From: Helicobacteraceae bacterium
Lineage (GTDB): Bacteria; Campylobacterota; Campylobacteria; Campylobacterales; SZUA-545
Length of the DNA stretch: 40,073 nucleotides
Assembly (NCBI GenBank): GCA_031260125.1
Contig: JAIRKM010000073.1
Coordinates: 1-40,073, forward strand
Direction: 5' to 3'
In this document: positions 9,255 to 10,025 of the stretch, piece by piece
Layout: every line of letters starts with the position of its first letter
How positions within the stretch are numbered: position 1 is the first letter of the stretch
Program-made: the position numbers and the translations under genes
The notes under the pieces: model-generated
The model's database searches: none
What the model saw: the letters and a program-made list of their open reading frames with translations, nothing else
Told to the model about the DNA's origin: nothing

Positions 9255-9407
9255 ATGCGTTTTTTGATCACGGGGCATACGGGTTTTGTCGGCGCCTGGA
9301 CGGCGCTATTTTTGCGCGAGCTTGGGCATACGGTTTGCGGACTGGCGCTAGAGCCCGCCAGATTTAATATTGAAAATGCGCAAAAGGTATTAAAAGAATG
9401 CATATAA
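9255..9407 (+). pseudogene. N-terminal stump of CDP-glucose 4,6-dehydratase (rfbG/ddhB)
   Basis: A 50-codon frame begins MRFLITGHTGFVGAW and continues LRELGHTVCGLALEP. This closely follows the N-terminus of CDP-glucose 4,6-dehydratases (VTGHTGFKGSWL, then LGA, then ALEP). The full enzyme is about 360 residues; here similarity ends after residue 34, and 16 unrelated residues lead to TAA 9407, overlapping the next gene start. It lies nine bases after rfbH, the position expected for a pathway partner. The other residues may be the 3' end of the same or another gene after an internal deletion. Confidence 0.7.
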
Positions 9408-9934
9408 CCCAAACCGCAATAGATGGATTATATATAGGCGAAGCAAAACGCTCAAGCGACGATCGCGGAAGTTATTCCAAGATTTTTGCCGAAGTAATCT
9501 ATAAAGAGTTGGGGTTTAACTTTACGCCCAAGGAGTTTTCGGTTCTTTTTTCGCGCAAAAACGCTTTGCGCGGTATGCATTTTGAGAAAGGCAAAATGGG
9601 CGAGCATCCGGCAAAAATTGCCTATTGCGTTAGTGGTAAACTCTGCGCCGTGGGCGTGGACATTCGCGCAGATTCTCCTACCTTCGCCCAATACAAAATG
9701 GTGGAACTCACGCCCGAAAGCGGAACTTTTATCTACCTGCAAGAGGGAGTGGCGTTTGGAACGCTGGCGCTGGAGGATAGCCATCTTGCGTATATTTCCA
9801 ATCAAAACTACGGCGAAGCGCTAGAGAGCGGTTTTAGGTACGACGATCCGCGAGTAAATATCCCGTGGCCTATCCCAACAGAGAGAGAGAGAGAGAGAGA
9901 GAGAGAAGAGGAGAATAATTCTTTCCGAACGTGA
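9398..9934 (+). CDS. RmlC-family nucleotide-sugar 3,5-epimerase with repeat-shifted C-terminus
   Basis: A 178-residue cupin with the RmlC features: DDRGSYSKIF near residue 22, and ALRGMHFEKG near residue 57 with the catalytic histidine kept. Next come VDIRADSPTF, an EGVAFGTLALEDSHLAYIS segment, and the DPRVNIPWPI ending motif. The protein then reads into a (GA)13 tract (alternating Glu-Arg) and stops at 9934. The expected family ending is present just downstream in another frame: LSERDLNLPNLGDIRL, stopping at TGA 9971, like the LSeKD-x3-P endings of RmlC proteins. One added GA unit, or two lost, would restore it. The present allele therefore encodes an altered tail. Sugar substrate unknown; a GDP-heptose or dTDP/CDP-sugar is plausible. 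Confidence 0.82.
   Translation: MHITQTAIDGLYIGEAKRSSDDRGSYSKIFAEVIYKELGFNFTPKEFSVLFSRKNALRGMHFEKGKMGEHPAKIAYCVSGKLCAVGVDIRADSPTFAQYKMVELTPESGTFIYLQEGVAFGTLALEDSHLAYISNQNYGEALESGFRYDDPRVNIPWPIPTEREREREREEENNSFRT
9881..9906 (+). repeat. GA dinucleotide tract, 13 units
   Basis: Uninterrupted (GA)13 between the conserved WPI element and the conserved LSERD ending of the RmlC-family gene. At 13 units the ending is out of frame; 11 or 14 units would put it in frame. This makes the tract length directly relevant to the protein produced. Confidence 0.92.
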
Positions 9935-10025
9935 TCTCAATCTACCTAACTTAGGCGACATTCGTCTGTGATTTGACTAGCAACGCTCTCTCGCGCCGCT
10001 ATGGAAAGCGGGCGATTTGCTACGG

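Follow-up and report, generated by a model that had tools for sequence, protein, structure and literature searches.

Why should the gene for a nucleotide-sugar epimerase, orderly throughout its core, run at its 3' end into a long dinucleotide repeat and then stop, when the ending expected of its family lies directly behind the repeat in a frame that the gene does not read? The question is posed by the window, a stretch of 40,073 nucleotides (contig JAIRKM010000073.1) from a Helicobacteraceae bacterium whose 1.64 Mb genome is assembled in 87 contigs (GCA_031260125.1) and whose relatives, where they bear a name, are metagenome assemblies assigned to the Helicobacteraceae. The features concerned are collected in Table 1.

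Table 1. Positions in the window of the epimerase gene, its tract and ending, and related features of the sugar locus.
Feature	Position	Strand	Basis
RmlC-like nucleotide-sugar 3,5-epimerase gene	9398..9934	+	ORF; PF00908 and TIGR01221 profile matches
(GA)13 tract, presumed slipped-strand switch	9881..9906	+	sequence
Out-of-frame RmlC ending, (KRR)IILSERDLNLPNLGDIRL and stop, with predicted catalytic-dyad Asp	9907..9971	+	frames; PDB RmlC alignment
RfbH-like CDP-4-keto-6-deoxyglucose 3-dehydrase gene, in frame (ON)	7867..9246	+	NF011936, 631.9 bits, cut-off 423
(AG)7 tract directly behind rfbH start codon	7880..7894	+	sequence
(CT)13 in 3' tail of NAD-dependent epimerase/dehydratase gene (1005-2144)	2057..2083	+	sequence
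(TC)15 in 3' end of N-terminally deleted epimerase remnant	4657..4687	+	sequence
NAD-dependent sugar dehydratase N-terminal remnant (begins MRFLITGHTGFVGAW)	9256..9405	+	PF16363 E 7e-6, profile 1-44 of 332

Structure of the epimerase gene

The open reading frame runs from ATG to TGA and encodes 178 residues, the last of which read DDPRVNIPWPIPTEREREREREEENNSFRT. In its present frame it passes through WPIPT, renders the tract as an ER repeat and closes with EENNSFRT at TGA 9932-9934, and the resulting protein is without the C-terminal block of the family. Strict alternation of bases extends over 27 positions (9880-9906), and the thirteen GA units occupy codons 162-170 of the 178. An RmlC-type ending, ILSERDLNLPNLGDIRL, occupies the +1 frame with respect to the gene and closes at TGA 9969-9971, the Asp codon of its LSERD motif, GAT, falling at 9933-9935. 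The first-pass annotation had reported thirteen GA units, a stop at 9934 and an ending in another frame that reaches TGA 9971, all of which the sequence confirms, and its arithmetic, by which 11 or 14 units would join both parts, agrees with the products computed for 10-15 units. Only 11 units (189 residues) and 14 units (191 residues) yield proteins with the ending, while 10, 12, 13 and 15 units yield 176, 172, 178 and 174 residues respectively. As a general rule, any unit count of 2 mod 3 joins core and ending; at two units the computed protein has 183 residues, as do several RmlC chains of solved structure.

The three frames behind the tract encode the tails EENNSFRT, RRGE (12 or 15 units) and KRRIILSERDLNLPNLGDIRL. 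The gene shows two of the features by which C-terminal phase variation is recognised, a simple sequence repeat towards the 3' end of the reading frame and a different C-terminus in each of the three frames. The tract is far longer than expected by chance, and the other two dinucleotide tracts of at least 13 units in the window are likewise GA/CT. Dinucleotide tracts of 26 bases are intrinsically prone to change in length, in both directions.

Family membership and the catalytic residue

The name RmlC, as first applied to this gene, holds for the family and not for the enzyme. The protein matches PF00908 (dTDP_sugar_isom; E 1.1e-33, 116.7 bits against a cut-off of 27, profile positions 1-153 of 168) and its core belongs to that cupin family, but its score of 96.2 bits against the rmlC equivalog TIGR01221 (profile 2-159 of 176) lies below the cut-off of 155.75, as does that of the intact homologue in the related genome G006 (99.1 bits). 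By these profiles it is an RmlC-like epimerase and not a proven RmlC, and since both proteins fall below the equivalog cut-off the family match does not fix the substrate; the neighbouring rfbH gene may point to a CDP-3,6-dideoxyhexose pathway. Structures predicted for the window protein and the G006 homologue from six-sequence alignments have a mean pLDDT of 45 and 44, too low to serve for a comparison of folds.

In the alignment, H61, K73, Y132 and Y138 are intact, and the core thus retains the His, Lys and Tyr of the active site, while the Asp of the C-terminal LSxxD motif is absent from the protein made at 13 units and is encoded in the other frame only. When the joined form, with unknown letters over the tract, was compared with solved structures, IILSERD aligned with IISEKD of several RmlC chains, which set the LSERD Asp on Asp170 of those with 183 residues. 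An orthologous ending is read in frame in G006 (IPAERNALIISDRDRSAPS). Judged by these alignments, what lies behind the tract is a genuine RmlC-family ending, as the annotation had supposed. In RmlC itself the His63-Asp170 dyad carries out deprotonation and its Asp is strongly required; in Campylobacter jejuni MlghB, Asp173 sits on a C-terminal turn enclosing the active site, and its replacement (D173A) abolishes C5 epimerisation while C3 epimerisation is kept (PMC7949155). Since the dyad Asp is out of frame at 13 units, the present frame would drop one predicted catalytic residue and keep the others.

Homologues and the fate of the ending

Five genes were compared, that of the window and those of four family genomes (G001, G006, G007 and G008), the homologues showing 76-78% identity over the core. 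The ending is made by one of the five, G006, which reads WTIPAERNALIISDRDRSAPSFELAVDLFFR up to its stop and holds just GAGAGA at the tract site. With two GA units the window linker, IPTEKRRIILSERD, fits IPAERNALIISDRD of G006 without gaps, and G001 has a short GA run at the same place (GAGAGAGAG). Given the gapless fit and the short runs, the tract would most simply have grown from a few GA units that were present ancestrally inside an E-R linker. The long tract is private to the window genome, being found in none of the four homologues; a search of viral contigs for relatives of the epimerase returned none.

In G001, which belongs to the window's genus, VILSPRDRALPLLADLE and its stop survive in another frame. 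They follow a palindrome-rich element of 72 bases, to which that genome has 11 more matches, full or partial. G008 reads WPSLST and a stop, past which SRRDLNLPKFCDVKF follows in the same frame; G007 shares the stop and its ending block is destroyed. The notion that the family ends at WPI, which would undermine a switch, is therefore half right, in that it describes G007 and G008 but not G006.

The epimerase core is under purifying selection, with dN/dS of 0.08-0.17 between the window and its relatives. Within the ending, the six codons of RDLNLP differ between the window and G008 by synonymous changes only and the changes downstream are mostly conservative, a pattern absent from the other two frames, although over so short a stretch the test is weak. 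Between G007 and G008 differences occur in 21 of 155 codons (14 synonymous, 7 nonsynonymous), and this largely synonymous divergence suggests that the short form without the ending has been retained by selection in these two genomes, where it may be functional.

Such constrained, repeat-free forms with a fixed stop raise the possibility that this subfamily can do without the ending, the tract having grown under weak selection and the short form being a working enzyme, with no consequential switching. The loss of the block in G001 through insertion would fit this explanation, as would the C3 epimerisation that C. jejuni MlghB and DdahB keep without the Asp, but the requirement for the dyad Asp in RmlC itself (PMC7949155) and the survival of a family-matching ending, intact in the window and in G006 and kept by G001 in another frame, make it rather unlikely in our judgement.

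GA/CT tracts across the lineage

Fifteen family genomes from seven genera were surveyed for GA/CT tracts at least 8 units long. The survey counts 110 such tracts, confined to nine genomes of genera g1 and g4; the five other genera have none. Each carrier has between 3 and 29 (6 in the window genome, 29 in G001, 17 in G005 and 3 in G011), whereas CA repeats are rare in the family, with at most 2 sites per genome, which speaks against a general excess of microsatellites and marks GA/CT as special. The tract-bearing genes include those for methyltransferases, NAD-dependent epimerases, DegT aminotransferases, MBOAT and other acyltransferases, glycosyltransferase 8 and DNA methyltransferases, and 15 tract-associated proteins have a lipoprotein-like signal peptide. 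The homologous tracts of one methyltransferase gene measure 22 nt in G000, 24 nt in G008 and 17 nt in G005, all on, and 22 nt in G007, which is off.

Eighty-seven tracts were read in context: 44 lie at the 5' end of an open reading frame, 13 inside and 7 at the 3' end, with 23 unclear. The frame is open in 20 of 64 classifiable tracts against an expected one-third (p 0.79; a rough test, in which the longest open frames were chosen), as expected if lengths are random with respect to frame. This bears on whether the unit number in the epimerase might be an assembly or sequencing error that conceals a true allele in frame. An assembly in 87 contigs, with a consensus that takes one length out of a mixed population, leaves some room for this, but the tract fits within ordinary short reads and many tracts of the lineage are likewise out of frame, at the chance rate, and we regard an error as very improbable.

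The surrounding sugar locus

Upstream of the epimerase the first gene that is complete is rfbH, whose 5' tract has homologues that differ in length and state: 15 nt and on in the window, 19 nt and on in G005, 20 nt and off in G006, 21 nt and off in G001 (the loci with this tract are 7867-7900 in the window and L117, L059 and L088). On this comparison rfbH is a cleaner phase variation candidate than the epimerase. The tract at 2057 is 27 nt long in the window and 29 nt in G005, and the C-terminal frame differs. Comparisons of this kind, drawn between species, are read as evidence of length change in evolution and not of switching within a population. A switch at the 4657 tract by way of the family-like ending SLERTLLSFTQQ behind it was considered but is not proposed: the window and G008, in which the homologous epimerase gene is intact with (CT)7, both read the same other frame, whose stop overlaps (ATGA) the start codon of the gene that follows.

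The locus also contains remnants, which we take as signs of recombination or deletion in a polysaccharide locus. That of the dehydratase runs into the epimerase start and resembles a CDP-glucose 4,6-dehydratase, the CDP-glucose part of this assignment being suggested by the rfbH neighbour; others derive from an NAD-dependent epimerase (4497-4760) and a third rmlC copy (about 5623-5760). They lend some weight to the idea that the epimerase itself has recently begun to decay, through a one-way frameshift in a degenerating, recombining locus. However, its core frame is intact and constrained, a tract of this length mutates both ways and the neighbouring tracts vary between relatives, and decay appears to us distinctly improbable.

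A model for C-terminal switching

Slipped-strand C-terminal switching is, we propose, the best account of the epimerase tract, and we put its probability at about 0.6. Slipped-strand mispairing would alter the number of GA units, and this number would then decide in which of three frames the last 20 or so residues are read. At unit counts of 2 mod 3 (11 or 14) the full ending would be made, with the active-site lid and the Asp that completes the His-Asp dyad; with 13 units, or with 12 or 15, the protein would end in EENNSFRT or RRGE and the Asp would be missing. Within a pathway for a variable surface polysaccharide, the epimerisation step would thereby toggle between a full form and an impaired or altered one. 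The instability of this tract, the loss or change of activity and a selective benefit are inferred, and the function of the tract is less certain than its mutability.

The first-pass annotation had called the locus a reversible switch and had taken the intact ending as proof. The frames, the GA-rich lineage and the homologous tracts of differing length and frame speak indirectly for the former; the latter does not stand, since a decaying gene that had slipped once, and recently, would look identical, and where only one of five genes makes the ending its integrity cannot be taken as proof of a switch. A further alternative places the slippage in the ribosome or the transcript, with some full-length protein arising from the 13-unit allele by recoding. 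A repetitive purine run backed by the right ending would suit such a process, but no test result favours it and the lineage-wide differences in length suit slippage at the level of DNA; we find it scarcely credible.

By analogy with MlghB D173A, the tract might even toggle the product, with C3 epimerisation only in the absence of the Asp and both C3 and C5 epimerisation in its presence. We think this doubtful, but if it were true slippage would switch the stereochemistry of a surface sugar, and the constrained, fixed short forms of G007 and G008 would mark lineages in which one of the states has become permanent.

Comparison with known systems

The concept of C-terminal phase variation is already known. 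In Helicobacter canadensis it was proposed for genes including an rfbB-type NAD-dependent epimerase, HCAN_0165 (Snyder et al. 2010, PMC2823697); there, as here, a gene for sugar biosynthesis carries a simple repeat close to its 3' end, with alternative short C-termini in the three frames. The H. canadensis repeats are poly-G only, however, with no dinucleotide tracts found, and sequencing reads showed variation in their length, whereas the repeat in the window is a GA dinucleotide, known from one assembled sequence, and the part that it would switch holds a predicted catalytic Asp. Neisseria gonorrhoeae similarly has 3' repeats that change the C-terminus, proposed as a third class of phase variation, but these are of homopolymer type, with (G)8 in ispH, a membrane protein and a pilin among the examples, and their lengths were compared across sequenced strains (PMC5320596). 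Helicobacter pylori oipA, in a related genus, is a slipped-strand switch based on a CT/GA dinucleotide, although it acts at the 5' end and wholly on or off (PMC10564699), and so resembles the rfbH and lipoprotein tracts of the window's lineage and not that of the epimerase. As an enzyme the window protein is comparable to RmlC and to C. jejuni MlghB and DdahB, cupin 3,5-epimerases with His, Lys, Tyr and a C-terminal Asp, for which PMC7949155 reports no repeat in the gene, although it scores below the rmlC equivalog cut-off.

The epimerase tract is thus a new candidate for a known concept, the novelty lying in the dinucleotide repeat, in the lineage and in the predicted catalytic residue within the switched part; no report of phase variation in uncultured Helicobacteraceae was found in the open literature searched, nor any relevant paper on Helicobacteraceae of termites, to whose guts the relatives may belong if their isolate names are read correctly. 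Were the model correct, a repeat would govern the presence of an active-site residue and not the expression of a gene, and C-terminal phase variation would acquire a meaning in concrete enzymatic terms that could be assayed simply. The epimerase would also join the lineage-wide set of GA/CT-bearing genes of uncultured Helicobacteraceae, which comprises surface-sugar enzymes, lipoproteins and DNA methyltransferases.

Further observations

In G011 (L140, C17) and one further member of the survey, GA tracts mark the beginning of a gene for an N6/N4 DNA methyltransferase and lie in an EcoRI-methylase-like gene; these are possible phasevarions. The repeat of about 72 bases in G001 (L036/L145, C11:759-830) directly abuts GA tracts at three sites or more (C5:56158, C65:5612 and C12:12808), is inserted in the rmlC linker and may be a seed of GA microsatellites. 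Long G/C runs at the contig ends of several relatives (L059 10508-10543, L056 35-58, L064 76-91) could represent either true poly-G tracts or artefacts of assembly.

Within the window, a second RmlC-family protein is encoded at 2141-2698, its start overlapping, as ATGA, the stop of the epimerase gene with a tract that lies upstream. RGLDFS replaces its catalytic RG-H motif and it has no LSxxD ending, and on these grounds a standard epimerase is unlikely. The gene at 2703-4496, set amid sugar genes, encodes a 597-residue protein resembling 1-deoxyxylulose-5-phosphate synthase (NF008968, 658 bits), perhaps a sugar-modifying thiamine enzyme.
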